From positions 1 to 45,250 of the IMG/VR virus record IMGVR_UViG_3300031885_003865: a DNA stretch of 45,250 nucleotides. One strand, written 5' to 3'. The notes under the pieces were generated by a model that worked only from the letters and a program-made list of their open reading frames with translations, was not told the DNA's origin and ran no database searches. The position numbers were made by a program, and so were the translations under genes. Within the stretch, counting starts at the first letter, position 1. The number at the start of each line of letters is the position of its first letter. The stretch comes from a virus. Shown one piece after another: positions 18,125 through 44,725 of the stretch.

Positions 18125-18913
18125 ATGGGGTCCAGAACCGCGTCGTTCGTGGCGGTGGTCCGCCAGATCACGATGGCGAACAAGCGGGAGGGACAGGTGT
18201 TCAGAATCCTGCTCGACTATGCCAGCGTGAAGGGTGAGACCCTGGAGACCCTGACCAAGTTCGGCGACGACGAGCAGGTGCGCGTCGTGATCCAGCCCAC
18301 GCAGGTGAGCATGGACGAGCTGCCACGGGTCGAGAAAGAGCGCCTCGGCCTGTTCGCGCAGGACGGCGCCGGGCCGGAGCATCCGGCCGCCGCTGCCCAG
18401 GTGGCCGGCGGGGAGGAGCGGGGGGACGGGGACACCGCCCCGGTTGACGCCAGCGGCCCGCCGCGGGACCTCGCGGAGGCCGACGGAGGGGGCGGCTCGT
18501 CGGGCGCAGCAGCCGATGACGCCGCGGCGAGTGCAGCTGAGGGCCCGGAAGGGCGCGCCAGCGCCGGCTCTGGCCCCGCTGAGGTCGGCGGCTTCATGGA
18601 GGACCACCGCCCGGAGATCGAGGACCTCCTGGGGGCCGGCACGCCGGACTCAACGATGAGCATGCCCCTCACGCACTTCGCCGCCGAGCTGGCGGTACTC
18701 GGATGCCGTGCCTCCTACGATGACGTGCGGGTCGCCATCGGTCGTACGGGCTACCTTGCCCTCGAGCGGTCAGGCCGCGGGTACCGGGTGAGGTTGACCG
18801 CGATCGAGGACCTGCAGGCAGCAGGCGACGATGGCGACGGTCCGGTCGTCAGCGCCGTGCCGCCTGCCCCGGTGGAGCTGGCGGCCGCGCCCGCGGGGGG
18901 TGCGGCGGAATGA
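18125..18913 (+). CDS. ParB-adjacent protein with C-terminal domain shared with the gene after parB
   Basis: 262 residues, ATG 18125 with CGGAGGTG. An N-terminal folded part (about 1-70: REGQVFRILLDYASVKGETL, VRVVIQP) joins, through a long Gly/Ala/acidic linker, a C-terminal winged-helix-like domain (about 178-232: LTHFAAELAVLGCRASYDDV, IGRTGYLALERSGRGYRVRL). The latter matches the 20562-21008 protein at 16 of 33 positions. It overlaps parB by four bases, so the three genes form one translational unit. I infer a DNA-binding or ParB-partner role. Confidence 0.65.
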   Translation: MGSRTASFVAVVRQITMANKREGQVFRILLDYASVKGETLETLTKFGDDEQVRVVIQPTQVSMDELPRVEKERLGLFAQDGAGPEHPAAAAQVAGGEERGDGDTAPVDASGPPRDLAEADGGGGSSGAAADDAAASAAEGPEGRASAGSGPAEVGGFMEDHRPEIEDLLGAGTPDSTMSMPLTHFAAELAVLGCRASYDDVRVAIGRTGYLALERSGRGYRVRLTAIEDLQAAGDDGDGPVVSAVPPAPVELAAAPAGGAAE

Positions 18914-20565
18914 CGGACCACGGCCGCCGCGGAGGCCTCCTAGACACCCTTGGCGCGACGCCGTTGAGCAGCCCCGTCGACGCCGGCGGGAAGGTGCTGG
19001 GCATCCCTCTCAACAGCATCCTGGTCGGTCGGAACGTCCGGCGCAACTTCGACGCGGCAGCCATGCAGCAGCTCACCGATAGCGTCAGACGCGTCGGCGT
19101 GCTGCAGCCCATCCTCGTTCGCCCCGCTGGCGACGGTTCTCCCGTGCTCTACATCCTCGTCTGTGGCGAGCGCCGGCTGAGGGCCGCCGAGGCGGCCGGT
19201 CTGGCCGCGATACCAGCCGTGGTGCGTGATCTCGACGACTCTGCGGCGCGGGAAGCGATGCTCATGGAGAACCTCCAGCGCCGCGATCTGGACCCCGTGG
19301 AGGAGGCCGCTGGGTTCCAGGAGCTCCTCCAGGAACACGGCTACAAGCAGCAGGAGCTGGCCGAGCGCCTGGGTGTGTCCCAGCCGCACATCGCCAACCG
19401 CCTGCGGCTGCTGAAGTTGCCCGAGGAAGTCCGGGAGCATATTTCGCGTGAAATACTGACGCCCGGGCACGCAATGGCCCTGCTACGCCTCGAGGTGGCA
19501 CCGGCGATGCTACTCCAGTGTGCGCAGCAGCTGGTTGCGGAGGAAACGCCGGTCGCAAAAGCAGGGGACCAAGTCGACGAGATCGTGCGCCGTACCGCGA
19601 AGCCCCTCGATCCTGACCGCTACCCGCACGAGGACAAGCCGGTGTTCGACACCACGACCTGCGGCAACTGCCATGAAAGCATCAGGGTCTCCAAGTGGCA
19701 GGGAGCCTCGGACAAGACCCCGTTCTGCCTCAACGGTGAGTGCTGGAGCCGCAAGCAGACAGAGGCGCAACAGACGCAGGCGGCCGCGCTCCGGGAGAAA
19801 TTCGGCAAGGCCGCCAAGGGCGGCAAGGTGCTCACAAGAGACGCCCTTCCGCAGGACGGGGACTCCTGGAGGCAGCTCAAGCACGAGAAGGACATCGACT
19901 CGGCCGCGTGCGAGGGCTGCAAGGACCTCGCCATCGCCCAGCTCTACTCGGCAGAGCCTGAGCCCGTGTGCCTTAACCCCAAGTGCCTCCGCAGGAAAGT
20001 CGCGGCGGTCACGCGGGAGAAAAACAAGGTGGCCCGCGAGACGGCCGCGGCCGCGGTCCAGAGCGCTGTCGAGTGGGCGCGGCGGACGGCTGCGGCGGGT
20101 ATCACCAAGGACGTACTCGTGCCTCTCGCCGGGCTCGTGTTCACGAACGTCAAGGCACAATGGCAGACCGGCGTCCCGGTGCAAAAGGCTGACACCTTCT
20201 TGAGGAACCGGGGGTTGGACATCGGGAACGCTCTCTGGTGCGTCGAGAATCAGGGCTGGCCGCAGTTCAAGGCGCAGCTCGAGGCCCTGTCCGAGGAGGC
20301 CCTGCTGGCGCTGGTCCTCGAATGGGCCGCGGTCGCGCTCGGCGGCACGTGGCTCATGCGCCTGGCCATGGGGCTGGAGCCACCGAACGCCGCCGCCCCC
20401 GACGACTACGTCGGGGCGGAGGATGAGGATTGCGACGGCGACTGTGACAATTGCGACGACGACGAGTGCGACACGCGCCGCGCGGACGGCGGCAAGGAAG
20501 CCGACAACGGCGCAGACGCCGCAGCCACGGTCAACGACCCCCTGACAAAGGAGGAAATCTCATGA
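18910..20565 (+). CDS. parB: ParB/Spo0J-family protein with zinc-binding C-terminal extension
   Basis: 551 residues. The ParB N-terminal (CTPase) domain spans about 30-125 with CGERRLRAAEAAG (85-97) and MENLQRRDLDPVEEA (119-133). The central HTH is YKQQELAERLGVSQPHIANR. The C-terminal half is not the usual ParB dimer: two cysteine sets (CGNC with FCLNGECW, about 251-276; CEGC with VCLNPKCL, about 335-361) probably bind zinc. The end is an Asp/Cys run (DCDGDCDNCDDDEC). Proteins of this class bind parS and slide as CTP clamps; some phage versions are nucleases or regulators. No ParA is present. A parS-like palindrome lies inside the gene (19440-19455). It is coupled by ATGA overlaps to genes on both sides. 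Confidence 0.88.
   Translation: MTDHGRRGGLLDTLGATPLSSPVDAGGKVLGIPLNSILVGRNVRRNFDAAAMQQLTDSVRRVGVLQPILVRPAGDGSPVLYILVCGERRLRAAEAAGLAAIPAVVRDLDDSAAREAMLMENLQRRDLDPVEEAAGFQELLQEHGYKQQELAERLGVSQPHIANRLRLLKLPEEVREHISREILTPGHAMALLRLEVAPAMLLQCAQQLVAEETPVAKAGDQVDEIVRRTAKPLDPDRYPHEDKPVFDTTTCGNCHESIRVSKWQGASDKTPFCLNGECWSRKQTEAQQTQAAALREKFGKAAKGGKVLTRDALPQDGDSWRQLKHEKDIDSAACEGCKDLAIAQLYSAEPEPVCLNPKCLRRKVAAVTREKNKVARETAAAAVQSAVEWARRTAAAGITKDVLVPLAGLVFTNVKAQWQTGVPVQKADTFLRNRGLDIGNALWCVENQGWPQFKAQLEALSEEALLALVLEWAAVALGGTWLMRLAMGLEPPNAAAPDDYVGAEDEDCDGDCDNCDDDECDTRRADGGKEADNGADAAATVNDPLTKEEIS
19440..19455 (+). promoter_or_regulatory. parS-like site A (within parB)
   Basis: TATTTCGCGTGAAATA has 6-base perfect arms around GCGT. 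It has the same plan as chromosomal parS (GTTTC-ACGT-GAAAC). It encodes ISREI within the ParB linker. The 15-mer ATTTCGCGTGAAATA recurs exactly at 44710. Confidence 0.65.
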
Positions 20566-21008
20566 TCCAGCGGCAACCGGAATCCATCGTCAGGTTCAAC
20601 CTGGCGCCGCCGCCAGGCAAGGACTGGACGCGCGAGAACATCGAGCTCTACCTGCTGCAAGTGATCGCGCAGGGCGTGCGGCACATCGCGGAGCGCGTCG
20701 ACGCCCTCTCCAGGGCTGCCGACCTCGTCGAGCAGAAGAACGCCGAGCTGCGCATCGTGGAGGGCGCGCTGGAGCTGCAGCACTACCAGGCCGAGATCAA
20801 GGCCGTCTTCGCGGCGCACGGCGCGGCCACCATGCGGGCCAGCACGTTCTGCGACGCGCTGTACCGGCTCAAGCTCTTTGTCAGCGCGAGAGAGCTGCAG
20901 CGCAGCATCGTCAGGACCGACTTCCTCGCCCTGGAGCCCGCCGGCGGCGGCCACCGGGTACGACTGATCGCGGCGGAGCCGGCCGCGGCGGGGGAGGGCG
21001 CGGCGTGA
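20562..21008 (+). CDS. second ParB-adjacent protein, sharing the winged-helix-like domain
   Basis: 148 residues. An N-terminal helical coil (WTRENIELYLLQVIAQGVRH, IAERVDALSRAADLVEQK) is followed by a C-terminal domain (about 88-140: STFCDALYRLKLFVSARELQ, IVRTDFLALEPAGGGHRVRL). That domain is the same as in the protein before parB. Position and coupling (ATGA with the parB stop) suggest a duplicated ParB-partner family. No published family is recognised. Confidence 0.65.
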   Translation: MIQRQPESIVRFNLAPPPGKDWTRENIELYLLQVIAQGVRHIAERVDALSRAADLVEQKNAELRIVEGALELQHYQAEIKAVFAAHGAATMRASTFCDALYRLKLFVSARELQRSIVRTDFLALEPAGGGHRVRLIAAEPAAAGEGAA

Positions 21009-21277
21009 AGGCGACCAGCAAACGACACACAGCGGCGGCAGCCGCGCCCAGGTTGGCCGTCGCGTACCGGTACACGGTCGAGGTCCGCTACCCGTGTGAG
21101 GCGACGCGCGTCGAGCGCCACCGCTCGCCCCTGGCGACGGGGCAGGTGGTGCCCCGGCATCCAGTCTGCGAGCACCCGGAGGCCTGCCCACCGGGCGCGG
21201 CTACAAAGCACTGGTTCTGGTGGTGCTCGGCGACAGTCGTCAGCGTTGCGGAGGTAGAGGAGGCGACGACCCGGTGA
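21005..21277 (+). CDS. small protein with C/H-rich centre
   Basis: 90 residues, GTG start overlapping the previous stop. YRYTVEVRYPCEATRVERHR leads to HPVCEHPEACPPG...HWFWWCSATVV; the C/H pattern could bind one metal. It overlaps the ASCH gene by four bases. Function unknown. Confidence 0.55.
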   Translation: MKATSKRHTAAAAAPRLAVAYRYTVEVRYPCEATRVERHRSPLATGQVVPRHPVCEHPEACPPGAATKHWFWWCSATVVSVAEVEEATTR

Positions 21278-21744
21278 AAGCCATCACGCTGTGGCAGCCG
21301 TGGGCCAGCCTCGTGGCCGTCGGCGCGAAGTCGGTTGAGACCCGCTCGTGGTGGACTGCCTATCGCGGCCCGCTGGCCATCCACGCCGGCGCCGCCCTGC
21401 GCCTGGAGCACCGGGCGTTGTGCGCGGAGGAGCCGTTCAGGGCTGCCCTGCGGCGCGGCGGGCTGACCGACCCGCGTGCCCTGCCACTGGGCGGGGTGAT
21501 CGCCGTTTGTGAGCTCGTGGACTGTAGCCTGATTCGCCGCGGACCCGAGGCCTTCTTGGGCAGCAGCGAACGTATGGTCCGCCCGAGCGCCCAGGAGGTC
21601 GCGCTCGGAGACTGGACGCCTGGGCGCTATGCCTGGTGCCTGGCCAACGTTCGGGCCCTGCCGCGCCCGATATCGGCCCGCGGCCGCCAAGGCCTGTGGG
21701 AGTGGGGGGCGCCGGCGGCAATCGAGGAGATGGTGTCGGGATGA
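21274..21744 (+). CDS. ASCH-domain protein
   Basis: 156 residues matching phage ASCH proteins (PF04266). It opens MKAITLWQPWASLVAVGAKS with VETRSWWTAYRGPLAIHAG, the classic family start, and later has GGVIAVCELVDC and YAWCLANVRALPRPI. The fold binds RNA or modified nucleotides; some members are amidohydrolases or ribonucleases. The GTG start overlaps the upstream stop (GTGA). It sits between the ParB group and rusA in a tightly packed early operon. Confidence 0.88.
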   Translation: MKAITLWQPWASLVAVGAKSVETRSWWTAYRGPLAIHAGAALRLEHRALCAEEPFRAALRRGGLTDPRALPLGGVIAVCELVDCSLIRRGPEAFLGSSERMVRPSAQEVALGDWTPGRYAWCLANVRALPRPISARGRQGLWEWGAPAAIEEMVSG

Positions 21745-22226
21745 TTGGGGCAAGCCGCGACGAGCCGACCGGATCCCTCTTTCCTTTGGCTGAGCCCGCC
21801 GCGCGGCGGAGGGCGGGGGACGGCTGCCCGGGCGAGATCGCCTTCACGGTCTTCGGCGTCGCCGTCCCCAAGGCGCGGGCGCGCACTGTGAAACTCCCCA
21901 ACGGGCAGATCAGCAGCTACACGCCCGCGAAGACTCGCGAGTGGGAGCGCTGGATACGAGCCCAGGCGGTGGTAGTGAAGCCGCCCGAACCCCTGGACGG
22001 CCCGCTGACCCTGGAGGCGACCTTCTACCTGCCGCGGCCGAAGTCGGTGCCGCGGAGCCGCCGCTACCCGGAGGTGAAGCCCGACCTCGACAACCTCCTC
22101 AAGGCGGTCAAGGACGCCCTCCGGGGGCTCATCTACCTGGACGATTCCCGGATCGTGGAGGTGAGGGCGAGGAAGCTGTATGATGCGGCGCCGCGGGTCG
22201 AGGTAAGGGTGACGCCGGCGGCGTAG
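21741..22226 (+). CDS. rusA: RusA-family Holliday junction resolvase
   Basis: 161 residues, with an N-terminal extension of about 30 residues before the core IAFTVFGVAVPKARART. The core ends in KPDLDNLLKAVKDAL with IYLDDSRIVE. The acidic catalytic residues D115, D117 and the DD pair near 135 are all present. It cuts four-way junctions in recombination intermediates or before packaging. The ATGA overlap with the ASCH gene shows co-translation. It complements the SbcCD/annealing module upstream. Confidence 0.93.
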   Translation: MIGASRDEPTGSLFPLAEPAARRRAGDGCPGEIAFTVFGVAVPKARARTVKLPNGQISSYTPAKTREWERWIRAQAVVVKPPEPLDGPLTLEATFYLPRPKSVPRSRRYPEVKPDLDNLLKAVKDALRGLIYLDDSRIVEVRARKLYDAAPRVEVRVTPAA

Positions 22227-22243
22227 GGGGAGGCGGCACGGCG

Positions 22244-22987
22244 GTGGTCCAAAGGCGGTTCCCGGAGACGGTGGCACAGCTCCTGCTGCCTGAGGAAGCC
22301 TACGAGCCTGGACTAGGCGGACCCAGGCCGGCCACCAGCGAGGAGGCGGCTGGGCGACCGCCGCGGCCGACCTGGTTGCCGGTGGTCGAGGCCGGGGGAG
22401 GCTCCGGCGATCGGCGGCTCCCTCGCCCCGCCCGTGCTGCCGCGGTGCCTGAGGCCAAACCCGGCCCGGCCGCCCAGGTTGAGCCGGTCGCCGGGGCGCT
22501 ATCGCTCGCGCCGCCCGCACCAGAGGCGGCGGTGGAGCCGGTCCCGCCGGTGCCCCGCGCCGAGGTCGGGGTCGGGGCCGCCGAGACCTCGGTCGCAACC
22601 TCGCCACTCGAGCCCTGCCCGCGCCGCCCGGGGCGGAGTTGGCTGGCGCGCCCGGGGAGGCCCCGACGGGTCCCGGCGGGCCACGGGGTGCTCCGCGCGC
22701 TGGCGCGGTTGGACCTCGAGCTGCGACGGTGGGGGCGCTGCCGGCAGGAGGGGGATGAACGCAGGGAGGTGAGCCAAGTGCAGCGGCCCGAGTACGACGC
22801 CTTCGTGCTGTTCAGATGCAACGTCGAGAAGAGGATGCCGGCGGACTCACCGAGCCATCGGGAGCGCAAGCCATGCATGGGAGCCGAGCCGGAGCAGTGC
22901 CCGCACGCCCGCTGGGTGCCAGGGTTGCGCTGGTATGGCTGCAGGCCGAGGAGTGTTCAGGCATTCCGTCGGCAGGAGAGCGCGTAG
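22244..22987 (+). CDS. low-complexity protein with cysteine-containing C-terminus
   Basis: 247-residue frame. The first 170 residues are Pro/Ala/Glu-rich with a short folded start (RRFPETVAQLLLPEEAY). The last 70 (RPEYDAFVLFRCNVEKRMP, KPCMGAEPEQCPHARWVPG, WYGCRP) have four cysteines and look folded. A GTG at 22779 preceded by GGGAGGTG could start this part as a separate gene. Family unknown. The third-position GC pattern supports coding throughout. It is the last gene of the early rightward operon, before a strong hairpin. Confidence 0.5.
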   Translation: MVQRRFPETVAQLLLPEEAYEPGLGGPRPATSEEAAGRPPRPTWLPVVEAGGGSGDRRLPRPARAAAVPEAKPGPAAQVEPVAGALSLAPPAPEAAVEPVPPVPRAEVGVGAAETSVATSPLEPCPRRPGRSWLARPGRPRRVPAGHGVLRALARLDLELRRWGRCRQEGDERREVSQVQRPEYDAFVLFRCNVEKRMPADSPSHRERKPCMGAEPEQCPHARWVPGLRWYGCRPRSVQAFRRQESA

Positions 22988-23307
22988 GTCGGGGGCGCGG
23001 ACGGGGACGACAACTGAATAGCACGCCCCGCGCGAGAGCCTCCGCGCGGGGCGTATCCGCCCGCTAGAGGATAATGCGGACGGTATGTCAAACTCCTGTA
23101 AGTGGCCGGTGTGCCCATCCAGCAAGCAGGCAGGCGGGGGGAACTCTGCGGCAATTCCCAGTGGCTGCGGCGACGCGGATGCCGGGGGATGTCAGGCATC
23201 ACACAATAGGCACCGCCCTCATCGGAGCAATTAGGCGAGGTCATCGTTAAGATCCAAGAGGGCAAGTCATATGGGTGGACAGGTTCGAGAGAGAAAGGGT
23301 GGGGTGA
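22988..23307. other. 320-base intergenic stretch at the end of the early operon
   Basis: It holds a strong hairpin (23023-23054), a weaker 6-bp stem GATGCC/GGCATC (23178-23200), and AT-richer sequence leading to the membrane-protein gene at 23308. No convincing promoter hexamers or open reading frame. The drop in GC begins here and continues to about 23690. Confidence 0.6.
23023..23054. terminator. hairpin ending the early operon
   Basis: A perfect 12-bp stem ACGCCCCGCGCG / CGCGCGGGGCGT with an 8-base loop, 36 bases after the last stop. No T-run follows, so it is a strong hairpin that may terminate with help or protect the mRNA end. Confidence 0.6.
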
Positions 23308-23682
23308 ATGTTAAGCTCCGTTCTGGTGGCGGTCATTCCGATCGTGATTGCTATATTCGGAGGCTTCTATCTGCAACAGCGGGCAGAGGCGAGGAGGCAG
23401 AGGATCGACCGATATGTGAAGTTCGTGAGAGAGCTTCGGGCCCTGTACGTCAAGTATGCGGGAGACACGCCGAAAAAAGAGGAACTCTTGGCCCAATATG
23501 CGGAGTTGTGGGCCTGCAGTTCGGACAGCGTTCTCCGAGCAGCAAAGGAGTTGTTCGATGGGATCCGCAAGGGCGGCGGCGGACACGAAGTTAGGATGCA
23601 GGAATTGGTGTTACGGATTCGGAGAGAGGTTCAGTGCCGTACAAAGAGCAAGCGCGAGGACTTCTTGATCTTGGCCCCCTAA
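23308..23682 (+). CDS. small membrane-anchored protein, AT-richer cargo candidate
   Basis: 124 residues, ATG after GGGGTG. One N-terminal hydrophobic span (about 3-22, VLVAVIPIVIAIFGGFYL) is followed by a basic-helical cytoplasmic domain (RIDRYVKFVRELRALYVKY, ELWACSSDSVLRAAKELFDG, VRMQELVLRIRREVQ). Such anchored helical proteins occur widely without assigned role. Its base composition is AT-richer than the neighbours, and it is isolated by a hairpin upstream and terminators downstream. This is the usual setting for a lysogeny-expressed moron. Confidence 0.65.
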   Translation: MLSSVLVAVIPIVIAIFGGFYLQQRAEARRQRIDRYVKFVRELRALYVKYAGDTPKKEELLAQYAELWACSSDSVLRAAKELFDGIRKGGGGHEVRMQELVLRIRREVQCRTKSKREDFLILAP

Positions 23683-23872
23683 GCAGGGCTCCTGAGGCCG
23701 ACGCAAAGGGGCGAGGGCGACAACTAACGCCTCGATGAAGCCGCGGACCTGATCCTCCGTGACGGGCATGCACAGCCGTTTTGCCTGCGTGGCGAACCAC
23801 TTTGCGCGAGCAGGATTTGCCGGCCCGACAGCGAAGCACCGCGTAGAGGCTCACGGTGGGCCTCTTTTTCAT
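23611..23872 (-). pseudogene. degraded minus-strand frame with apparent frameshift
   Basis: From 23872 the minus strand reads MKKRPTVSLYAVLRCRAGKS. A different phase then reads AKWFATQAKRLCMPVTEDQV with RGFIEALVVALAP, carrying strong coding-type third-position GC, to a TAA at 23611. The phase of the second block has no start codon before an internal ATG at 23769, and its end overlaps the plus-strand membrane gene. I read it as two parts of one broken gene. No family identified. Confidence 0.3.
23845..23869 (+). terminator. intrinsic terminator before the late regulator
   Basis: AGAGGC / GCCTCT stem with a 9-base loop, followed by a five-base T-run (23865-23869, overlapping the stem end). It would stop transcription from the membrane-protein gene. 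It overlaps the possible GTG start of the next gene. Confidence 0.6.
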
Positions 23873-24302
23873 TGTAGGGGGGTGCGGTGCCCTGAGCGCG
23901 CTGACTCGTCAGGTTGACTGGCTACTGCGCAGCCGGCGTTGGCTGCGCCAACTGGGGGACGCGGTCGGAGACGGGTCCCGGAGCATCGTCCTCCTCGGCC
24001 CGGGCGGGGGCAAGCCGGACCCAACGATGGCCGCCGGCGTCGCCCGCGAGGCGCTGTCCAGCGTCCTCGACGCCGTGGACCGCGCCCTCGCGCAGTTGCC
24101 GGCCGAGACCCGCCAGGTCGTCCGGCTGAGATACGACCTCGAGCTCCCCGTCAAGGAGGTGGCCAGGCGCTCGAACATGGCCCCCCGGACGGTCGCCCGC
24201 CGGCGCGACGACGCAAAGGCAATGGTGGCGCGGTTTCTAGGCACTGTCGGGAGACAAAGGTTGGCACGTTTCTGGCACGTTTTTGGCACGTTTGTGGCAT
24301 AA
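23856..24302 (+). CDS. ArpU/sigma-70 region 4-like late transcription regulator
   Basis: 148 residues from GTG 23856. That start lies inside the terminator hairpin, so a CTG at 23892, with GGGGGGTG seven bases upstream, is a serious alternative. The C-terminal half is sigma region 4-like: LDAVDRALAQLPAETRQVVR, LRYDLELPVKEVARRSNMAP, RTVARRRDDAKAMVARFLG. In Firmicutes phages ArpU-type proteins sit just before terminase and switch on late genes. This one precedes the promoter at 24320 and the packaging genes, matching that role. Confidence 0.8.
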   Translation: MGLFFIVGGCGALSALTRQVDWLLRSRRWLRQLGDAVGDGSRSIVLLGPGGGKPDPTMAAGVAREALSSVLDAVDRALAQLPAETRQVVRLRYDLELPVKEVARRSNMAPRTVARRRDDAKAMVARFLGTVGRQRLARFWHVFGTFVA

Positions 24303-24319
24303 ACGTGGCCGATTGGTGG

Positions 24320-24348
24320 CTGACATCTGGCGTGTCAAGTGGTACAAT
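24320..24348 (+). promoter_or_regulatory. candidate late promoter
   Basis: CTGACA (24320-24325) and TACAAT (24343-24348) with a 17-base spacer, 18 bases after the ArpU-like stop and 64 bases before an intrinsic terminator. It would drive the methyltransferase and morphogenesis genes if transcription passes the terminator. Confidence 0.65.
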
Positions 24349-24411
24349 GTGCTATAGTAGCCGGGGGCGTCGGGAGAGGTCCTCGGCGAGATGAAGCGAG
24401 AGCGTCGAGAG

Positions 24412-24434
24412 AGCAGCCGATGAGGCTGCTTTTT
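24412..24434 (+). terminator. intrinsic terminator or attenuator upstream of the late operon
   Basis: AGCAGCC / GGCTGCT stem (7 bp), 5-base loop and a five-T run. It lies between the promoter at 24320 and the methyltransferase start. The tract TGCTTTTTCATTTG resembles the tract of the terminator at 23845 (CCTCTTTTTCATTG). It suggests control of late genes by antitermination or attenuation. Confidence 0.7.
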
Positions 24435-24506
24435 CATTTGCCCCCGGGGCTGGCCAGGCAGGCAGGCTCATTCTTCGCAGGACGCGGCAAAGGACGGGCA
24501 ACTGGC

Positions 24507-25199
24507 ATGATCGACATCCAGCTCGTGGACTGCCTCGAGGGCCTCCGGGCCCTGGACGACCAGTCGGTGGACTACGTGTTCGCCGACCCGCCATACGGCA
24601 TCAACTTGCAGCCGCAGTTCACGGCCTGGGCGCCGGTGCCCAACGACGACCTGACGGCGGAGCGATACGAGGCCTGGATCGGCGAGGTACTCGGCGAGCT
24701 TCGGCGGGTGCTCAAGCCCAACACAGCGATGCATCTATGCGCGGGCTGGTCGACGGCCGACGTGGTGATGCGGGCCCTGCGCGGCGCGGCCTTCACGATC
24801 AAGGGCTGTGTCGTATGGGCGAAGGATAGCCCGGGCCTTGGCTGGCACCTGCGCCGGCAGCACGAGTTCGTGTTCCTGGCGTTCAAGGGCGCGCCGCCGA
24901 AGCCGGCCAGGGCGCCCAGCGACGCGTGGCATATCTCGAGGGTCCCTGGGCGCCGGCTGCTGCATATCTGTCAGAAGCCGGAAGAATTGGTTGAAAGAGC
25001 CATGCTCGTCTACACCAAGCCTGGCGACCTCGTGCTCGACCCGTTCTGCGGGTCAGGGACGACGCCGGCGGTGGCGCAGCGCCTGGGGCGGCGCTGCCTG
25101 GCGATGGAGGTCGACCCGGAAGTGTATCGGGTGGCAGTGGCGCGGGTAGCGCCCAACCCTGGCAGGCTTGACGTTGACAGCGTCAACCTGACACCCTGA
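24507..25199 (+). CDS. DNA adenine/cytosine-N4 methyltransferase (phage orphan)
   Basis: 230 residues from ATG 24507; the open frame upstream crosses the promoter and terminator. Catalytic motif DPPYGINLQ lies near 33-41, then the LRRVLKPNTAMHL region, and the SAM-binding DPFCGSGTTPAVAQRLGRRC near the C-terminus, in the beta-class order. It methylates DNA amino groups. DPPY is most usual for N6-adenine, but specificity cannot be read. No restriction partner is present, so it probably protects phage DNA against host restriction or tunes packaging or expression. First gene of the late operon. Confidence 0.9.
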   Translation: MIDIQLVDCLEGLRALDDQSVDYVFADPPYGINLQPQFTAWAPVPNDDLTAERYEAWIGEVLGELRRVLKPNTAMHLCAGWSTADVVMRALRGAAFTIKGCVVWAKDSPGLGWHLRRQHEFVFLAFKGAPPKPARAPSDAWHISRVPGRRLLHICQKPEELVERAMLVYTKPGDLVLDPFCGSGTTPAVAQRLGRRCLAMEVDPEVYRVAVARVAPNPGRLDVDSVNLTP

Positions 25200-25231
25200 C
25201 GACCCTGACATCCTGGCGGGAGGTGGCCTCG

Positions 25232-27188: not shown

Positions 27189-27207
27189 AGAGCGAGGTGA
27201 GCGCGAC

Positions 27208-32444: not shown

Positions 32445-32448
32445 CACG

Positions 32449-32929: not shown

Positions 32930-32941
32930 GGGGTGGGCGCC

Positions 32942-33891: not shown

Positions 33892-33894
33892 GGC

Positions 33895-34407: not shown

Positions 34408-34422
34408 GCGGAGGTGGTGACG

Positions 34423-35272: not shown

Positions 35273-35310
35273 ACCGCAGCCCGGGCGGTGGCGACCAGTG
35301 GCAAGCGAGG

Positions 35311-35337
35311 CGGGGAGGGGCTGCCCGCCCCTCCCCG
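35311..35337. terminator. hairpin after the tail tube gene
   Basis: A perfect 10-bp stem CGGGGAGGGG / CCCCTCCCCG with a 7-base loop. There is no T-run. It probably causes partial termination or stabilises the upstream mRNA. Twelve bases downstream begins parS-like site B. Confidence 0.5.
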
Positions 35338-35349
35338 GTGCCTAGCGAG

Positions 35350-35365
35350 ATTTTGCGTGAAATAT
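35350..35365 (+). promoter_or_regulatory. parS-like site B
   Basis: ATTTTGCGTGAAATAT in the gap between tail tube and tail chaperone genes. It differs from site C at one base (T for C at position 5), and the match extends further to TCG. Same strand orientation as sites A and C. Confidence 0.55.
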
Positions 35366-35383
35366 CGAGAGGAGGAAGCGGCG

Positions 35384-36799: not shown

Positions 36800-36850
36800 G
36801 GCCTGACACCTCCTTCTTGGTATTTCGCAACTGAAAGGGGAGATCCTGCT

Positions 36851-39800
36851 GTGCCCGCCGATCAAGGGATCCGGCTGAATGTGAGCGCGGATGTCCAGCA
36901 GGTTGACGGCTTCACGACGGCGGTGGGCCGTCTGCAGACCAGTGCCGACGGCCTTTACCGAGTCCTGGGGCAGCTTGGCGTCATTTACGCGATGCAGCGC
37001 GCATTTGTCGCCCTCACTCGGTCTGGGAGCACAACGGAGTATGCCTTTGTGCGCCTGGCGGTGACCGCCGGCGAGAGCCGTACCAGTCTCGAGGCCCTCG
37101 CGCGGACGATGGTCGGTAGTATCTACGGCCCCCAGGCCATGGCCGCCGCGATGACAGACCTGGCCGTGGCCGGCGCCGACGTCCGCGAGATTTATGCCAG
37201 CCTCCCGGCCGCCATCGATTGGGCCACCGCCAGCGGCCAGGCGCTCGAGACGGCGACCGCCGGCCTGATCGACGTCGCGGAGGCGTTCGGGGTGGAGTTC
37301 GAGCAGGCGCAGGAGGTCGCCGACCTCTTCGCGGCCGCGATGCAGAGTTGCGACATCCGCGCCGCCGAGCTCGGCCCGGCCCTGGCGACGGTGGGGCCCG
37401 CCGCCCGCCTGGCTGGCCAGGACATGGCCGAAATGACGGCTGCCATGAGCGCGATGTCCAGCATCGGCATCGACGCCGTCAACGGCGCATCCGCGCTCAA
37501 ATACGCCTTGATGGAGCTCAGCAACCCCAGCGAGCAGGCGCGCAAGTTGCTGGAGTCGCTGGGAATCGAGCTTCACGATAGCGCCGGCCGGTTGAAGCAC
37601 TGGTCGGACCTGGTCGGCGAGTTCCAGGCCAAACTCGCCGGGTTGACCGACGAGGCGCGCTCGCAGGCGCTGATCACCATCCTGGGCCTGCGCGGCGTGC
37701 AGGCCATGGCGGCGTCGCTTGACGCCGGCTCCGAGTCTCTCCGCCAAATGGCAGGAGCGTTGGAGGTTGCGGACGGCGCCGCACTCAGGACAGCACAAAC
37801 GATGCGCGGCACGTTCGCGGGAGCGACGCGACAGGCCGGGGCCAATCTTGAGCGACTGGCGGCTGCCGTGTTCAGCGACGTCGAGCCTGCGCTGACTGGT
37901 CTGCTGGGGCTCCTTAGCACGCTCATGGCGGGGTTCAACGCGCTTGAGCCGGCGGGCCGCGGCGCCATTGAACTCTTGGTCGGCGGTGCGGGATTGGCCG
38001 TGGCCTTAAAGATGGTGTATACAACGCTGAAGCAACTCCTGGCGACCCTTGGCATAGCTAGCGCAACATTGAAGGCCATCAGTTGGCCGGTGAGCATCGT
38101 TGCCGGCCTCATCACGGCCCTTCTGTACGCCAAGGGCGCCCAGGTCCAGGCCGCGCGCGCCGCCGAGGAGCACGACCGGTCGATCCTCGACCTCGCGAAG
38201 GCCTTGGAGAAGGCCGAGACCCGCCTGGCGGCGGCCAAGAAGGGCACCGACGAGTACAAGGCCGCCAGCGACGAGCTCCTCAAGGTCAAGCAGGACATCG
38301 CCACGCTGATGCCCGAGATGGCCACCGCGTTTGACACCGAGGGCAAGGCGGTCGACATCCTGGCGGACAAGTACCGCCAGCTCGCCGCCGAGGCCGAGGC
38401 GTCCATGCGCGCGCGGCTGCGTGACCAGATCGCGGCGGCGCGCGCGAAGCAGGTGCAGCTCGCGGAGGATGCCCGCCGCCTGCGTCGCGGCGACGTCGAG
38501 GGCGCGGGGGGACTGGGCGTCGACACCCCGGCCAAGATCGAGGCGCAGACCAAGGCAGCCCTGGAGCTCGAGCGCCAGGCGCGCGAGACGGCCGCCGAGG
38601 TCGAGCGCCTCTACGCCATCCTCGAGGGCCTCGGCGGCGGCGCGGCGCTTGAGGCGCGCTACGAGCGCATCCACCCGCCGCGCCCTCCTCGGGAAGTCCC
38701 TGGCGACAAAAACCCCTTCAGTGACCAGGAGAACGAGGCCATCGCCAAACAGATCGCCCTCTTCGACCACCTGGTGGCCATCGGCGACGCCCGCGTAGAC
38801 ACCCTGCGCGAGCAGCTCGACTGGCTGGGGCTCCTGCGCTTGGAGATGGGCACGTCCTGGGAGCTCGAAGAACTCATCGCCCAGAAGCGGCGCGAGTACG
38901 CCCAGCAGGGCAGCGACGCTTACAAAGAGTGGCTCCAGGCGATGGAGGAGGCCGACCTGGCCTTCGTCGACAAGCAGGTCGAGGCGGCGCGCCGCGGCCT
39001 CGGGGCCCGCATCGACGCCCTGCGCAAGGCATCGGCCGCGGAGCTCGCCATCCGCCAGGAGATCGAAAAGATCGACCGCCAGCTCGAGGCCGAGGATCGC
39101 CAGGAGCGCACGCGCGAGTTTGAGGCGTCGTTGGCCGACCTCCAGGCCGAGGTGGACAAAGTCCGCGCCGACTACGACCGCCAGATCGCGGCCGTCAAGG
39201 GCGAGCGCCAGGTGCGCATCGTGGCCGGCGAGCGGCGCCTGACCTGGGACGAGGGCCGGGTGGCCGAACTGGAGGCCGAGCGCGCCGAGCGTCTGGCCGA
39301 GATGGAGAAGCAGCGCCAAGACCTCGTGCGCGACCGCGAGCGCGAACTGCATCGCCAGCAGATGGAGGACCGCAAGACCGAACTCCAGGAGCGCCTTGAG
39401 CAGCTGCAGGCGGGCCGCGAGCGCGAGATCGAGCAGCTTGAGAAAAACTTGCAGGTCGTCGCTGACTACTGGGCGCGCCAGCGCGAGCTGACCCAGCTGG
39501 CGTACAAGCAGATTCTCCGCGATCTCGAGCTCAAGCAGGACGCCGAGCGCAAGATGTGGCTCGATCATTATGATGCGCTGCTTGGCGATTTCCGGCACTA
39601 CCTCGCCGAGCGCCGGCGCCTCGCGGCAGAGGCAAATGCCGCCGCGGGCGCCGGCTCAACTGGTGGCGGCGGGGGCGGGACTGCAACGACCGGCTCGACC
39701 GCGGCGGCGCAGGGGGCCAGTAGCAGCGCCGGCGGGTCCGCGGGCGCCAGCGGTGCGGCGGCGGTCGCCGGGACCGCCAGCCGAGGCGGCCTAACCGTGA

Positions 39801-39925
39801 TCCAGAATGTGACCGTGCACCTGCCGGCGGCGACCCCCGACACGCTGCGGCAGTGGGGCCTGGGCGAGGCAGATCGCCAGTTTCGCGCCCAGGGGTATTT
39901 CGACCGCGGCGGCGCGCGGCGATAG
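36851..39925 (+). CDS. tape measure protein
   Basis: 1024 residues, GTG with AAAGGGGAG. The N-terminal third matches phage tape measures (TP901-type): VDGFTTAVGRLQTSADGLYR, DMAEMTAAMSAMSSIGIDAV, ASALKYALMELSNPSEQARK, and a hydrophobic segment (about 355-430) with VALKMVYTTLKQLLATLGIA. From about residue 430 to 925 it is a very long charged coiled coil (ERAERLAEMEKQRQDLVRDR). The C-terminus is Gly/Ser/Ala-rich with a folded end (LTVIQNVTVHLPAATPDTLR). Its length sets tail length, roughly 150 nm by the usual 1.5 Angstrom per residue rule. Confidence 0.95.
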   Translation: MPADQGIRLNVSADVQQVDGFTTAVGRLQTSADGLYRVLGQLGVIYAMQRAFVALTRSGSTTEYAFVRLAVTAGESRTSLEALARTMVGSIYGPQAMAAAMTDLAVAGADVREIYASLPAAIDWATASGQALETATAGLIDVAEAFGVEFEQAQEVADLFAAAMQSCDIRAAELGPALATVGPAARLAGQDMAEMTAAMSAMSSIGIDAVNGASALKYALMELSNPSEQARKLLESLGIELHDSAGRLKHWSDLVGEFQAKLAGLTDEARSQALITILGLRGVQAMAASLDAGSESLRQMAGALEVADGAALRTAQTMRGTFAGATRQAGANLERLAAAVFSDVEPALTGLLGLLSTLMAGFNALEPAGRGAIELLVGGAGLAVALKMVYTTLKQLLATLGIASATLKAISWPVSIVAGLITALLYAKGAQVQAARAAEEHDRSILDLAKALEKAETRLAAAKKGTDEYKAASDELLKVKQDIATLMPEMATAFDTEGKAVDILADKYRQLAAEAEASMRARLRDQIAAARAKQVQLAEDARRLRRGDVEGAGGLGVDTPAKIEAQTKAALELERQARETAAEVERLYAILEGLGGGAALEARYERIHPPRPPREVPGDKNPFSDQENEAIAKQIALFDHLVAIGDARVDTLREQLDWLGLLRLEMGTSWELEELIAQKRREYAQQGSDAYKEWLQAMEEADLAFVDKQVEAARRGLGARIDALRKASAAELAIRQEIEKIDRQLEAEDRQERTREFEASLADLQAEVDKVRADYDRQIAAVKGERQVRIVAGERRLTWDEGRVAELEAERAERLAEMEKQRQDLVRDRERELHRQQMEDRKTELQERLEQLQAGREREIEQLEKNLQVVADYWARQRELTQLAYKQILRDLELKQDAERKMWLDHYDALLGDFRHYLAERRRLAAEANAAAGAGSTGGGGGGTATTGSTAAAQGASSSAGGSAGASGAAAVAGTASRGGLTVIQNVTVHLPAATPDTLRQWGLGEADRQFRAQGYFDRGGARR

Positions 39926-39937
39926 GGAGGAATAACG

Positions 39938-42463
39938 ATGGCGCAGCTTTTCACCGGCACCGCAGTCAGCTTCCACGAGCGGCCTTACTCCCAAGCCGTG
40001 GCCGAGCCCGACGGCAGCAAGCTCTACATCCTCGCGTGGAACGGCTCGGTGGCCAAGCTCGCCACCAGCACGAACCACGGTGTGACCTGGCAGTTCGAGG
40101 ATACGCCAATCACGGTGACCGGGTACGACCGGGGCGTCTCGCGCGGCCGCGACGGCAACGTCTGGGTCTGGTCCAGCCCGACCAAGGGCTACATCAACAT
40201 CTGGCAGCGCACCGGCGCCGACCAGTACACGCTCGTCGTCGCCAACTACCAGTTCACAACCTACGCAAACGACGTCTACGGCATCCACGTACTCATAGCG
40301 TCCACCGGCGACATGCACCTGCTGTGGTGCGAGGCGCCGGGCGGGTCGCCGGCGTACACGTTCTATCACCGCAAACGGAACGGCGGGGCCTGGGGCTCGG
40401 CAACAGTCGTCTGGAGCGCCGACGCTGGCGGGTCAGGCAACAGCTGGAAGGGCAGGGTCCACGTTTGTATTGGCAAGGACAATATCGTCCACGCCGGCGG
40501 GGCGAAGTATGCCAACCCGGGATCGGCGTGGTTCTATTCGTACTATGACACCTCATGGCATGGCGGCTCCGTGCCCAGCGACACACTGGCGGGCAACGCA
40601 CCAGCATTGTCCCTCGGTTGCATCGTCCCCGATGAGGCCACGGGCGACGTCTACTGGCTGCGGGTCTACAATGGCTCAACGTACACCGTGGGTCTCTACC
40701 GCCGCCAGCCAGGGCAGGCGTGGGCGAAGCTGGCCACCCTGACCGATGTGGCCGACGTGGCGGGGCTCGCCGGCCTGTGCTGGCACCGACGCCGCGGCGA
40801 ACTCGCCGTCATCTACCAGCGCTCGGATACCGGTGCGGTCGCGCTGCGCTGGTGGCGCGGTGGCGCGCTCACGGCGCACCGTACCCTGAACTCCGAGACG
40901 CCGCGCACCGACGGCGGCGCCATCATCCCCGACACGCAGTGGGATATCGTCATCGCGTACAACAAGACGGCCACGTTCATCGCCATCGCCGACACGTACG
41001 TGGTGTCGGTCGCCCCGACGGTGTCGGTGACGGCGCCGGCGGGCACGGAGGCCGATCCGGCAGTGCTCAGCAACGTGATCTCGCTCATGGCTCTGTCCGG
41101 CGTTTACTCCAGCGACGTCGTTCCCATGGCATCGAGGCGTCATCGTGTCTTCGACGAGGACGACAACCCCATTTGGGACTCGGGCATCATCGCCGCCAGC
41201 GCGCCGACGGGCGGCTCGGTGGTGGTAGCGGTGCCCGCGGGGGTGCTGAAATACGGTCAGGTCTACTGGTGGCAGTGGTGGGCGCAGGACACGGCCGGGT
41301 ACGAGTCGGCCTGGTCGTCAGCCGGCTGGTTCTTGGGCGAGGTGACGGCGCCGGCGATGACGCTAACGCCCGAGGCCGCCCAGGCGCGCATCCGCGTCGA
41401 CGCCATCCTGGCGGCCGAGTGCCTGGCGGGCTTTCGGGTCTACCGCGGTCTAACCGCGGGTGGGCTCGTGCGGCACAATCTACTCCTGGTGCCGGCGGTC
41501 GAGGTGCGTCGCAACCTCCTCGCGCGCGAGGAGAGCGACCTCGAGGCCGGCATCAACGGGTGGATCAGCAACCACTCGACCGTCTCGATCGCGCACGATG
41601 TCACCTCGGCGTGGCAGGGCTGTGGCTCGCTGAAAGTGACGTGCTCCGATGTCGTGAACTTCCACGGCGTGCGCGGGACGCTGCATGACGTGCAACCCGG
41701 GCGCCGGTACGTCGGCAGCGCTTGGGTCACCGGGGTCGGCCACGTGCGCATAGGTCTAAGGACGCCAGCAGGGCCCTGGATTTCCATTCAGAACCAGCCG
41801 CTTGTTCTGAATGGCCAGTACCAGGCGACATACGTTGCCGGAACCATCCCCGAGGGCATCACGCAAGTGGGGGTGGATGTTGTCCAGTACGAAACGGCCT
41901 CGCCGGCCGTCTTCTGGGTCGACGGTGTTCAGCTCGAGCAGTTGGACGCCGGCGGCCCCGACGACTGGCTTCCTGGCGGCGTGGCCGAACTCGCCGGCGA
42001 GTTCCTCGACGACGTCGCCGCCTGCGGCCAGGCGTACTACTACGCCGCCAGCGCCGTCGCCGACGACGGGTACGAGTCGGCCCTCTGCGCTGCCGCCCAG
42101 GCGTCGGTTACGTTCGTGGGCACCTGGCTCGACGACCTCAGACTGCCGGTGGCCCCGACCGGGTTCGAGGTCCAGGAGGAGTTCACAGGCTCCATTGCCC
42201 CAGCCCTGGGGCGGCCTTACCCGGTCGTCTTCCGCCGCCAGGCGGGGCGGCGGCTGTACCTCGCCGGGACATGCCTGGACAAGGCGGACAAGGACGCCCT
42301 GGCGGCCATCCTGCGCGCGCCGGGGCCGCACCGCTACGTCGACCCTCTGGGCGAGGCCTTGCGCGTCGAGGTCGCGGCGCCGGTGCGGTTCTCGCAAGTG
42401 CGGCCATACGACCCCGACCAGCTCATCTACAGTTGGTCGGCTGAACTGGTGGAGGTGTTCTAG
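39938..42463 (+). CDS. distal tail/receptor-binding protein with propeller, FN3-like, carbohydrate-binding and Dit-like parts
   Basis: 841 residues, ATG with GGGAGG. N-terminal 1-340 has repeated WxWS/TxDG-type strands of a sialidase-like beta-propeller (GSKLYILAWNGSVAKLATST, GDMHLLWCEAPGG, GDVYWLRVYNGS, RGELAVIYQRSDTGAVALRW). About 345-470 is FN3-like (PTVSVTAPAGTEADPAVLSN, YWWQWWAQDTAGYESAWSS). About 520-670 resembles a CBM4/9-type module (NLLAREESDLEAGINGWISN, GSLKVTCSD, VFWVDGVQLEQL). The C-terminal 110 residues (FEVQEEFTGSIAPALGRPYP, YSWSAELVEVF) look like a tail-tip (Dit/baseplate) anchor. It probably recognises cell-surface glycans. Confidence 0.75.
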   Translation: MAQLFTGTAVSFHERPYSQAVAEPDGSKLYILAWNGSVAKLATSTNHGVTWQFEDTPITVTGYDRGVSRGRDGNVWVWSSPTKGYINIWQRTGADQYTLVVANYQFTTYANDVYGIHVLIASTGDMHLLWCEAPGGSPAYTFYHRKRNGGAWGSATVVWSADAGGSGNSWKGRVHVCIGKDNIVHAGGAKYANPGSAWFYSYYDTSWHGGSVPSDTLAGNAPALSLGCIVPDEATGDVYWLRVYNGSTYTVGLYRRQPGQAWAKLATLTDVADVAGLAGLCWHRRRGELAVIYQRSDTGAVALRWWRGGALTAHRTLNSETPRTDGGAIIPDTQWDIVIAYNKTATFIAIADTYVVSVAPTVSVTAPAGTEADPAVLSNVISLMALSGVYSSDVVPMASRRHRVFDEDDNPIWDSGIIAASAPTGGSVVVAVPAGVLKYGQVYWWQWWAQDTAGYESAWSSAGWFLGEVTAPAMTLTPEAAQARIRVDAILAAECLAGFRVYRGLTAGGLVRHNLLLVPAVEVRRNLLAREESDLEAGINGWISNHSTVSIAHDVTSAWQGCGSLKVTCSDVVNFHGVRGTLHDVQPGRRYVGSAWVTGVGHVRIGLRTPAGPWISIQNQPLVLNGQYQATYVAGTIPEGITQVGVDVVQYETASPAVFWVDGVQLEQLDAGGPDDWLPGGVAELAGEFLDDVAACGQAYYYAASAVADDGYESALCAAAQASVTFVGTWLDDLRLPVAPTGFEVQEEFTGSIAPALGRPYPVVFRRQAGRRLYLAGTCLDKADKDALAAILRAPGPHRYVDPLGEALRVEVAAPVRFSQVRPYDPDQLIYSWSAELVEVF
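41784..41814. repeat. perfect inverted repeat inside the tail-tip gene
   Basis: CCATTCAGAAC and GTTCTGAATGG (11-bp perfect arms) around a 9-base loop, in the carbohydrate-binding module. The arms are AT-richer than their surroundings. Confidence 0.65.
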
Positions 42464-42464
42464 G

Positions 42465-44444
42465 ATGCAGGCAGTGTCGACGGAGTTTCAGGACTACGTC
42501 CAGGCGCCGGGCACGAAGCAGTTCCTGATCAAGGCCGAGATCTGGTCGGCCGACGAGAGCGAACTGCTGCTTGAAATCGACGACATCAACTGGAACAGCG
42601 ACGGCCTGGCCCCGGTGAAGGCGACGGCCCGCAGCTGCAGTATCGGCGCCGACCGCGCCGCCGAGTGCCGGCGCACGTGCACGCTCGTCATCAACAACGA
42701 GCAGGGGTGGCTTTCCCCTGACGATGCCGCGCCGGCGGATTGGCCGTTCGCCGAAAACAACGTCCTGAAGGTTTGGGAGGGCTACCGGCTGCCGAGCGGC
42801 GCTGACGAGCTCCTGCCCGTCTTCTGGGGGCTCCTGGACCCGGCGGCGGTGCCCGTGGAGACGAGCTCGGAAAGCGCGATCACCGTCGTGGCGAGGTCGG
42901 TCGAGAAGCGCCTGGCGCAGCAGAAGTTCGCCGACACGACGGTCTACGTGGACAACCCCAGCGAGTCGGCAAACTACGCCTCGCCCGCCCAGGGCGCCAG
43001 CGCCACAGCAAGCTCGTCGCTGGCCGCGGGGCAGCCCCTGCAGCCGGGCGCCCGCGTGACGGCGCGGGCCTACGCCACCGTCCTCGGCCAGAAGGCGGCG
43101 GTGGCGGCGCCGGCCTCGTGCCGCCTGGCCCTCGACGGCTCGACGGGCACGGCCCTGGAGCACAGTTACGTCGCCGTGGGCCTGACTGCGCTCGAGCTCG
43201 TCCTGCTCGTCGACTTGCGGTGTGTCGAGTCGGTGCAGTCCCTGACGCCGCGGCTGGGCGAGGGCACGACGGCCACCAGCCTGCGGACCTCGAGCGACGG
43301 CCTGACGTGGACCGAGCGCGACCCGGCCGGCATGGGTGCGGCGTCGTTCCGGTTCGGCGAGCTCACGGTGGAGGCGCCGGCGGCCGGCGGACAAGCCACC
43401 GTCGTCATCCAGGAGGTCGAGGTCCTCGCCGGGGCCGCCTACCCGGCCTCCAATGCCATCGACGGCGACTCCGCGACCACCTGGCGGCCGGCGCCCGGCG
43501 ACCTCGACCGCACCCTGGCGATCGCGTTTGGCACCGCTCGCACGTTTAACGTCGTTTACCTCTCCTGGGGAGCAACGCTGGTCGACCAGGACAACCTCGT
43601 GACGTACCAGGTCCTCAACGGCGGCACCGGCGCCGTGCTCGTCGACCAGGCGGAGCCGGTGTGCGGCCTGGTCGAGCACGTGGTTGGGGCGACCTGCTCT
43701 TCGATCCAGGTCCACGTCCTGACGGCGGCGGGCCTGGTGGCCCTGCGCCACGTCGAGGTCCTGCAGGTTACCGCTACCAACACGGTCAGCTACCTGCTCG
43801 GTGACCTGGCGGCCCAGGCGGGCATCGCCCGCCAAGACATCCAGCCCAGCCGCCTCTACCGCGCGAATTTGACGTGCCAGCTTGGCGAGTCCTACATCCA
43901 GCACGCGCGCGACATCGCCGCCGCGGCCGCCTGGGAGCTTTACGGCGACCCCGAGGGCTACCTGGTGGCGCGGCCGGCGCCGGGAAACCCGACGGACGTT
44001 GCCGCCCGGTACGAGGCCGGCGCGGCCAACCTCATCGGCGGCTTCGCGCGCGAGCCTGGCAGCCAGGCCGTGTTCAACCACGTCGTGGTATTGGCCAAGC
44101 TGCCGGGGCAGACCGTCCGCGGCGAGGCCCAGGACAGCTCCGCCGGGTCGCCAACGTGCACCCAGCGTCTCGGCGACCGCGTGCTGGTCGTCGAGGACCC
44201 GGGCTGCGACACCCAGCGCAAGGCCGACGCACGGGCGCTCGTCGAGCTGTGGCGTAACTGCCAGTGGCGGAGCGCGGTCTCGTTCTCGGCGGTGGCCAAC
44301 CCCGCGCACGAGGCCGGCGACGTACTCGAGGTGGTGGAGGGCACGACCCGGGTCGCGGGGCTGTACGTTCTAGAGTCGTTCGAGTTGTCGATGACGCCGG
44401 CGGAGTTCAGCATGAGCTGCCGCTGCGCGCCGCTGGGGGTGTAG
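42465..44444 (+). CDS. baseplate hub/tail protein with inserted discoidin-like domain
   Basis: 659 residues from ATG 42465, GGAGGTG upstream. The first about 150 residues (KQFLIKAEIWSADESELLLE, CTLVINNEQGWLSP, VFWGLLDPAAVPVETSSESA, ITVVARSVEKRLAQQ) and the last 230 (NTVSYLLGDLAAQAGIARQD, DVLEVVEGTTRVAGLYVLES) fit Firmicutes tail hub/XkdQ-like proteins. Between them, about 320-450, YPASNAIDGDSATTWRPAPG is the start of an F5/8 type C (discoidin) fold, probably surface-exposed and glycan-binding. No peptidoglycan-cleaving domain was seen in it. Confidence 0.7.
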   Translation: MQAVSTEFQDYVQAPGTKQFLIKAEIWSADESELLLEIDDINWNSDGLAPVKATARSCSIGADRAAECRRTCTLVINNEQGWLSPDDAAPADWPFAENNVLKVWEGYRLPSGADELLPVFWGLLDPAAVPVETSSESAITVVARSVEKRLAQQKFADTTVYVDNPSESANYASPAQGASATASSSLAAGQPLQPGARVTARAYATVLGQKAAVAAPASCRLALDGSTGTALEHSYVAVGLTALELVLLVDLRCVESVQSLTPRLGEGTTATSLRTSSDGLTWTERDPAGMGAASFRFGELTVEAPAAGGQATVVIQEVEVLAGAAYPASNAIDGDSATTWRPAPGDLDRTLAIAFGTARTFNVVYLSWGATLVDQDNLVTYQVLNGGTGAVLVDQAEPVCGLVEHVVGATCSSIQVHVLTAAGLVALRHVEVLQVTATNTVSYLLGDLAAQAGIARQDIQPSRLYRANLTCQLGESYIQHARDIAAAAAWELYGDPEGYLVARPAPGNPTDVAARYEAGAANLIGGFAREPGSQAVFNHVVVLAKLPGQTVRGEAQDSSAGSPTCTQRLGDRVLVVEDPGCDTQRKADARALVELWRNCQWRSAVSFSAVANPAHEAGDVLEVVEGTTRVAGLYVLESFELSMTPAEFSMSCRCAPLGV

Positions 44445-44447
44445 CGG

Positions 44448-44687
44448 GTGAGTGACGTGACGCAGATGGAGGCGGTGGCGCGGCAGGTCGCGCGTGGAGG
44501 GGCGCGCCTCGACATCGCCGTGGTGGCGTCGGTGGTCGGGACCTCGGCACGGCTGTACCTCGACGGCTCGACCGCGGCGGCCAGCGAGGCCGTGCCGTGC
44601 CTGGCGCACTATACGCCGGCGGCCGGCCACCGCGTGCTGGTGGCGTTCCAGGCCGGCCGGCCGCTGGCGGTGCTGGGCAAGTTCTGA
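44448..44687 (+). CDS. small OB-fold-like baseplate protein
   Basis: 79 residues, GTG after GGGGGTGTAG. A helical start (MEAVARQVARGGA) is followed by a five-strand pattern: LDIAVVASVVGTSARLYLDG, VPCLAHYTPAAGHRVLVAFQ, GRPLAVLGKF. This resembles short baseplate spike/OB-fold proteins that follow the hub gene in Bacillus-type phages. Assigned by pattern and order. Confidence 0.65.
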   Translation: MSDVTQMEAVARQVARGGARLDIAVVASVVGTSARLYLDGSTAAASEAVPCLAHYTPAAGHRVLVAFQAGRPLAVLGKF

Positions 44688-44709
44688 GGCGGTGCTTGCC
44701 GGCAGGCTC

Positions 44710-44725
44710 ATTTCGCGTGAAATAT
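44710..44725 (+). promoter_or_regulatory. parS-like site C
   Basis: ATTTCGCGTGAAATAT in the 69-base gap before the holin-like genes. The first 15 bases are identical to site A in parB, and all but one base match site B. Confidence 0.65.

Follow-up and report, generated by a model that had tools for sequence, protein, structure and literature searches.

ParB-type proteins are described from several systems. Under the ParB/Noc recognition code, R173 reads G1 of the site, Q173 reads A1 and R201 reads C6; K or R is permissive at positions 179 and 184, and mutants of the Q/K/K/G type prefer sites with features of both classes (PMC7383237). KorB and VirB are presented, in passages of two reports, as ParB-family cytidine triphosphate (CTP) clamps that regulate transcription (PMC11790492, PMC10770331). 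Orphan phage ParB-CTPase proteins have already been catalogued, and the passages of that catalogue available to us describe no DNA sites for such proteins (PMC12704722). Here, we analyzed IMG/VR record IMGVR_UViG_3300031885_003865, positions 1 to 45,250 (the whole stretch of 45,250 nucleotides is hereinafter referred to as the window), a linear virus contig that is possibly a fragment of a phage genome. It encodes a lone ParB/Noc-type protein, P0001, and carries three palindromes predicted to be its loading sites. On balance, the phage appears to encode its own ParB/Noc-type CTP clamp together with its own loading sites, the likely job of the clamp being to organize or separate replicating phage DNA. 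At the sequence level, this reading is based on the sites themselves, on the way they vary together with the protein, on their placement in intergenic gaps and within parB, and on the absence of ParA.

The phage system resembles Noc-NBS, the nucleoid occlusion system of Bacillus, in its ParB-type CTPase core, the lack of ParA, dispersed 16-bp palindromes, Q173 with A1, and K or R at 179 and 184. The window sites have A6 or G6 with G201, whereas Noc has C6 with R201, although one related phage with R201 (G048) does carry C6 sites; the phage protein further differs in its zinc modules, its location on a phage and the fact that no amphipathic N-terminus was seen. With chromosomal ParB-parS it shares the CTP motifs, HTH_ParB and the inner base A6, and a few chromosomal ParBs share the site within parB at the same codons. 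In contrast to that system, it has neither ParA nor a ParA-binding motif, its outer base is A instead of G, its sites are spread along the genome, and its C-terminus differs. The ParB of the plasmid PRTRC system (PRTRC_parB, TIGR03734) matches residues 39-388 of P0001, including the zinc region, at about 30% identity and 165 bits, but the score lies under the family cut-off (278.6), P0001 is found on a phage, and no ThiF partner was detected in the window record or in 16 related records. KorB of RK2 is likewise a ParB-family clamp with a role beyond partition, and its several operators are scattered across a mobile element; it differs from the phage system in operator sequence, in its C-terminus and in having KorA as a partner. 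As far as the available passages of the catalogue go (PMC12704722), P0001 is like the orphan phage ParB-CTPases in being a phage orphan without the ParA-binding motif; the ParBs of phages Hedwig, Bowser, VarioGold and Maja are divergent from it. A literature search of incomplete coverage yielded no description of DNA sites for orphan phage ParBs, of sites scattered over a phage genome, or of phage parB genes with a conserved internal site.

A lone ParB and three palindromes in the window

The exact sequence ATTTCGCGTGAAATA was found at 19441-19455, within parB, and at 44710-44724, and a copy with one mismatch, ATTTTGCGTGAAATA, at 35350-35364. The palindrome itself, ATTTCGCGTGAAAT, starts at 19441 in parB and at 44710 in a gap. 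When up to three mismatches were allowed, the window gave five strand-hits against 0.13 expected, and none of 100 shuffled sequences reached five. These results bear out the initial annotation of this DNA, which had placed one palindrome within parB, another at 44710 and a one-mismatch copy at 35350, had assigned the latter two to intergenic gaps, and had considered the repeat to be beyond chance. Its description of the arms as canonical parS (GTTTC-N4-GAAAC, TGTTTCACGTGAAACA) was ruled out: the outermost base, a specificity position, is A:T and not G:C, and the inner base is A or G. Judged by its bases, the window site is a hybrid of parS and the Noc site. The two gaps, of 111 bp (site at 35350) and 69 bp (site at 44710), each separate co-directional genes. 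The site at 35350 follows a stop codon (35272) and precedes an ATG (35384), with a ribosome-binding-site-like AGGAGG between those two codons, and the automatic open reading frame start (GTG, 35288) is probably an over-extension. The site at 44710 follows a stop codon (44687) and precedes a GTG (44757). The sequence TATTTTGCGTGAAATA, as at 35350, recurs in phage contig G008.

P0001 scored above the cut-off for ParB_N (78.3 bits; cut-off 26.3), HTH_ParB (88.1; 22.6) and parB_part (146.3; 58.45); a KorB domain match (25.6; 22.3) overlaps the far higher-scoring HTH_ParB. The core was modelled confidently, and its fold matches ParB, Noc and KorB structures. Both CTP-pocket motifs, GERRxRA and ENLQRxD, are intact (GERRLRA and ENLQRRD), and the loss of the CTP-pocket residues, which the initial annotation had named as grounds for abandoning its proposal, was thus not found. 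The zinc domains that it had noted proved to be two modules in the C-terminal half with the spacings C251-x2-C254...C273-x4-C278 and C334-x2-C337...C354-x4-C359, both conserved in relatives. Against the label 'ParB-like nuclease' used in annotations, the helix-turn-helix (HTH), the CTP motifs and the co-varying sites favour a clamp.

Residues Q158, R164, K169 and G186 of P0001 correspond to Caulobacter positions 173, 179, 184 and 201, giving the specificity set Q-R-K-G. Because of this set, the published code predicts a hybrid A1/A6 site from the protein residues.

The best NCBIfam core match, nucleoid_noc (TIGR04285), together with Q173, K or R at 179 and 184 and dispersed sites, is in line with a Noc-like function, in which the clamp would tether phage DNA to the membrane or block host division. 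However, the match reached 175 bits against a cut-off of 315, G replaces R201, and no Noc-type N-terminal amphipathic helix was seen, residues 1-26 being disordered in the model; most relatives of P0001 start at the ParB domain, without an N-terminal extension. We regard this function as highly improbable.

As the initial annotation had stated, the ParB is without a ParA: no ParA-type ATPase was found in the record, and no ParA family scored above the cut-off in any of 30 motif-holding records including the window (possibly fragments), with the control positive in 14 of 14 genomes. The ParA-binding motif [LFI]G[KR]G[LFI] was not found in P0001 and is missing from 33 of 35 viral ParBs with Q173, whereas 68 of 80 chromosomal ParBs have it. 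ParB-site pairs act as centromeres in plasmids and in P1, and an extrachromosomal prophage or phage DNA could in principle be partitioned here by a host or unseen ParA. Since neither ParA nor its binding motif is present, partition is the least likely of the roles that had been put forward (organizing, partitioning, silencing or licensing); a tyrosine integrase is also encoded, and we consider ParA-driven partition very unlikely.

Sites and proteins in related phages

IMG/VR was scanned with the 16-mer TATTTCRCGTGAAATA, with the reversed motif as control. The motif was found in 58 stretches and the control in nine; several motif contigs hold two to four copies, whereas no control contig had two sites. 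HTH_ParB above the cut-off was detected in 10 of 29 longer motif contigs and in none of nine control contigs. Of these 10 ParBs, eight are related to P0001 and have both the in-gene site and cysteines of the zinc type, and the ParBs recovered by the motif scan alone are distant, zinc-domain proteins with about 30-45% identity. The GC content of the family contigs, including the window, ranges from 42 to 69%. A de novo search for repeated palindromes returned the site as the top palindrome in many moderate-GC contigs and failed at 65-70% GC, the window included, where GC palindromes swamp the site. In addition, four records (G007, G012, G020 and G021; L111-L118) hold two to four TATTTCACGTGAAATA-type sites and no ParB; the layout of G020 matches that of G006, and G020 is probably a fragment.

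As a single-protein query, P0001 had no match in IMG/VR, and relatives were obtained only with an alignment query. The alignment-only protein search yielded 80 viral loci; the alignment was built from motif-selected contigs, so that this family sample is not wholly independent. The comparison set of 80 chromosomal ParBs was taken from among the matches listed in a genome-contig scan and included no prophages. Fourteen family members carry the site at the same parB codons (I-S-R-x-I), and in distant ParBs I-S-R-[EGK]-I is spelled ATT-TCA-CGT-G[AG]A-ATA with small variants. For the window, a phage of 69% GC, this choice of codons would arise with P = 1.5e-5 from the peptide at the codon use of the window. 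At least five of seven palindromic pairs in exact register were present in 19 of 36 viral ParBs with Q173, in one of 45 other viral ParBs and in three of the 80 chromosomal ParBs listed. These three (L202, L221 and L267) have the parS GTTTCACGTGGAAC at the homologous codons, encoding V-S-R-G-T; therefore, a site within the gene is probably the ancestral state, with a change of both outer bases probably having accompanied that of the protein. The same three ParBs would fit a relic, in which the in-gene parS came along with a parB captured from a host and the remaining copies are neutral. We give this explanation very little weight, as the sites of the phages have changed along with the protein and persist in the gaps of phages that share only about 30-45% identity in their ParBs.

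The residues at 173 and 201 were then compared with the site bases, several sites in one genome not being independent in these counts. At chromosomal R173 loci (among the matches listed), G1 was observed 123 times against 0.3 expected and A1 once against 0.6. At viral Q173 loci, A1 was observed 43 times and G1 twice, each against 0.3 expected; of the 37 viral Q loci, two had been selected by the motif (G000 and G013), and A1 amounts to 39 without them. Viral ParBs with another residue at 173 gave A1 once (0.3 expected) and G1 once. Among the Q173 phages, the inner base of the half-sites went with residue 201 as follows: R with C in 16 of 16, G with A in 38 of 44, S with A in 37 of 48, A with G in eight of eight, and T with T in nine of 14. 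G048 (L325-L327), with a Q173/R201 ParB, has eight Noc-type ATTTCCNNGGAAAT sites from 5882 to 39158 at an interval of about 4.8 kb, one of them inside parB. Other phages carry six ATTYCAYGTGRAAT sites (G033), three identical ATTTCGTGAGAAAT sites (G053) or the sequence ATTCCGCGCGGAAT (G045). An exception to the code is G037 (L303-L305), which has a Q173 ParB yet GTTCC-type sites at 4631, 22244 and 34434. Separately, a lone phage ParB with P at 173 (G052; L328-L330) is accompanied by three CGTTTCYYRRGAAAC palindromes at 4886, 19771 and 47435 and perhaps represents another specificity class.

Host genomes were searched after the family had been defined, with Bacillota as the reference set; the host of the window phage itself may lie elsewhere. 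The 16-mer was absent from 15 whole genomes with chromosomal ParBs and present in one of 399 Bacillota genomes, with three copies on two contigs. The contig with two copies encodes a ParB of the P0001 type (38% identity) with the in-gene variant TATTCCACGTGAAATA, and has local similarity to phage contigs. The initial annotation had named clustering in the phage and absence from the host as support for a phage-specific site; the motif proved to cluster in related phages, with two to four copies in several contigs, and to be rare in the genomes searched. This distribution and the intact CTP motifs give strong support, at the sequence level, to a ParB-site pair specific to the phage.

Placement of the sites and role of the clamp

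A total of 68 sites were placed in 22 contigs, 15 inside parB and 53 elsewhere. Genes were taken from a simple gene caller and cover about 80% of the sequence; 49 of the 53 non-parB sites lie outside predicted genes, and most of the other four (G000, G036, G045 and G048) are at a gene boundary, a place where the called start codon is uncertain. The mean site spacing is about 5-15 kb. Replication genes flank parB, with DnaC/DnaD-type loaders upstream and a RusA resolvase downstream; this position in the replication module suggests expression of parB in the early lytic phase or upon induction.

Following ParB/Noc biochemistry, P0001 would bind the hybrid palindrome via its HTH, and the clamp would close on CTP and slide off the site. 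Loading at several points at the observed spacing would cover most of the phage genome, and the clamp would organize and separate the replicating phage DNA without a ParA motor. The tandem zinc module, in place of the usual C-terminal domain, perhaps recruits host SMC or another partner. In addition, through the in-gene site, ParB would probably be loaded onto its own gene and dampen it.

The main rival of such DNA organization is transcription control, in which a clamp loaded at late-operon sites and at the parB site would slide to promoters and act by KorB-like repression or VirB-like relief of silencing. KorB and VirB provide a precedent, in the passages cited above (PMC11790492, PMC10770331); sites are found in late-operon gaps and, in G010 and G018, immediately before small-terminase genes, and parB among the early genes would have the right timing for a late-gene switch. 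However, many sites are located in gaps of 20-70 bp that separate co-directional genes and would not be expected to hold a promoter, and their position relative to gene families is not conserved, the flanking families differing from phage to phage. We therefore consider transcription control unlikely, if worth serious attention.

Several observations weigh against DNA organization by a phage clamp with its own loading sites. The organizing role is suggested by gene order and ParB/Noc biology only, and the C-terminal model of P0001 had no match below E = 0.9 among solved folds. The contrast of R173 and Q173 with G1 and A1 is one deep split of the tree and therefore counts as one evolutionary event, and at residue 201, every class apart from G and S consists of one or two phages. 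Evenness of site spacing is weak (combined P = 0.011) and comes mainly from one contig, G048. G024 is among the relatives' contigs with the in-gene site alone, and no repeated TTYC-N4-GRAA sites were found in the cultured phages Hedwig, Bowser, VarioGold and Maja, which carry more distant lone ParBs.

Gene content of the phage and meaning for orphan phage ParBs

The features of the window are listed in Table 1. Because integrase, terminase, portal, capsid and tape-measure genes are encoded, the window represents a temperate tailed phage.

Table 1. Positions of parB, its domains, the predicted loading sites and selected genes in the window
Feature	Position	Strand	Basis or remark
Tyrosine integrase	1..1179	-	Profile match; temperate phage
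Replication protein O-like gene	16019..17326	+	Upstream of parB
DnaC-like helicase loader	16902..17867	+	Similarity to contig G030; start over-extended
parB, lone ParB/Noc-type protein P0001, 551 aa	18910..20565	+	Pfam ParB_N and HTH_ParB above cut-off; modelled core
ParB N-terminal CTPase domain, GERRLRA and ENLQRRD motifs	19015..19278	+	Profile match, motif match
HTH_ParB DNA-binding domain	19285..19581	+	Specificity residues Q158, R164, K169, G186
In-gene predicted loading site ATTTCGCGTGAAAT	19441..19454		Codons of I-S-R-E-I
Zinc-ligand module 1: C251, C254, C273, C278	19660..19743	+	Invariant in 13-14 relatives
Zinc-ligand module 2: C334, C337, C354, C359	19909..19986	+	Conserved in 13-14 relatives
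RusA-like Holliday junction resolvase	21636..22226	+	Downstream of parB; cluster similarity to contig G033
Predicted loading-site copy ATTTTGCGTGAAAT, one half degenerate	35350..35363		111-bp gap 35273-35383
Predicted loading site ATTTCGCGTGAAAT	44710..44723		69-bp gap 44688-44756

Other genes were also identified. In the early region, a calcineurin-like phosphoesterase adjoins an SMC/Rad50-like ATPase (6904-9525 and 9522-11663, + strand), forming an SbcCD/Mre11-Rad50-like pair. Beside the integrase, a RelA/SpoT-domain protein (1321-2283, - strand) and a 37-kD nucleoid-associated protein (NA37; 2280-3365, - strand) are encoded in a lower-GC stretch and are possible cargo or defence genes. A DUF5131 protein above the Pfam cut-off (13672-14628, + strand) also matches the PADLOC candidate families PDC-M41B and PDC-M30B, and a DNA methyltransferase gene (24339-25199, + strand) is located between the replication and packaging genes.

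With regard to the wider family, it is quite possible, in our estimate a little short of probable, that these phages represent a widespread class with ParA-independent, lone and mostly zinc-domain ParBs, whose private dispersed sites would have evolved apart along with their proteins (A1 in all cases; at base 6, A, A, G, T or C for G, S, A, T or R, respectively, at residue 201), mostly with a site within parB, and which would cover the virus genome during replication. Orphan phage ParBs, known as sequences with no known function, thereby gain candidate DNA targets, allowing a direct test of a ParA-less clamp. The many natural protein-site pairs add new combinations of residue and base to the ParB/Noc recognition code and may be usable as orthogonal DNA-labelling pairs. 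Further, the dispersed phage sites would amount to a genome-wide map of clamp loading on a virus.

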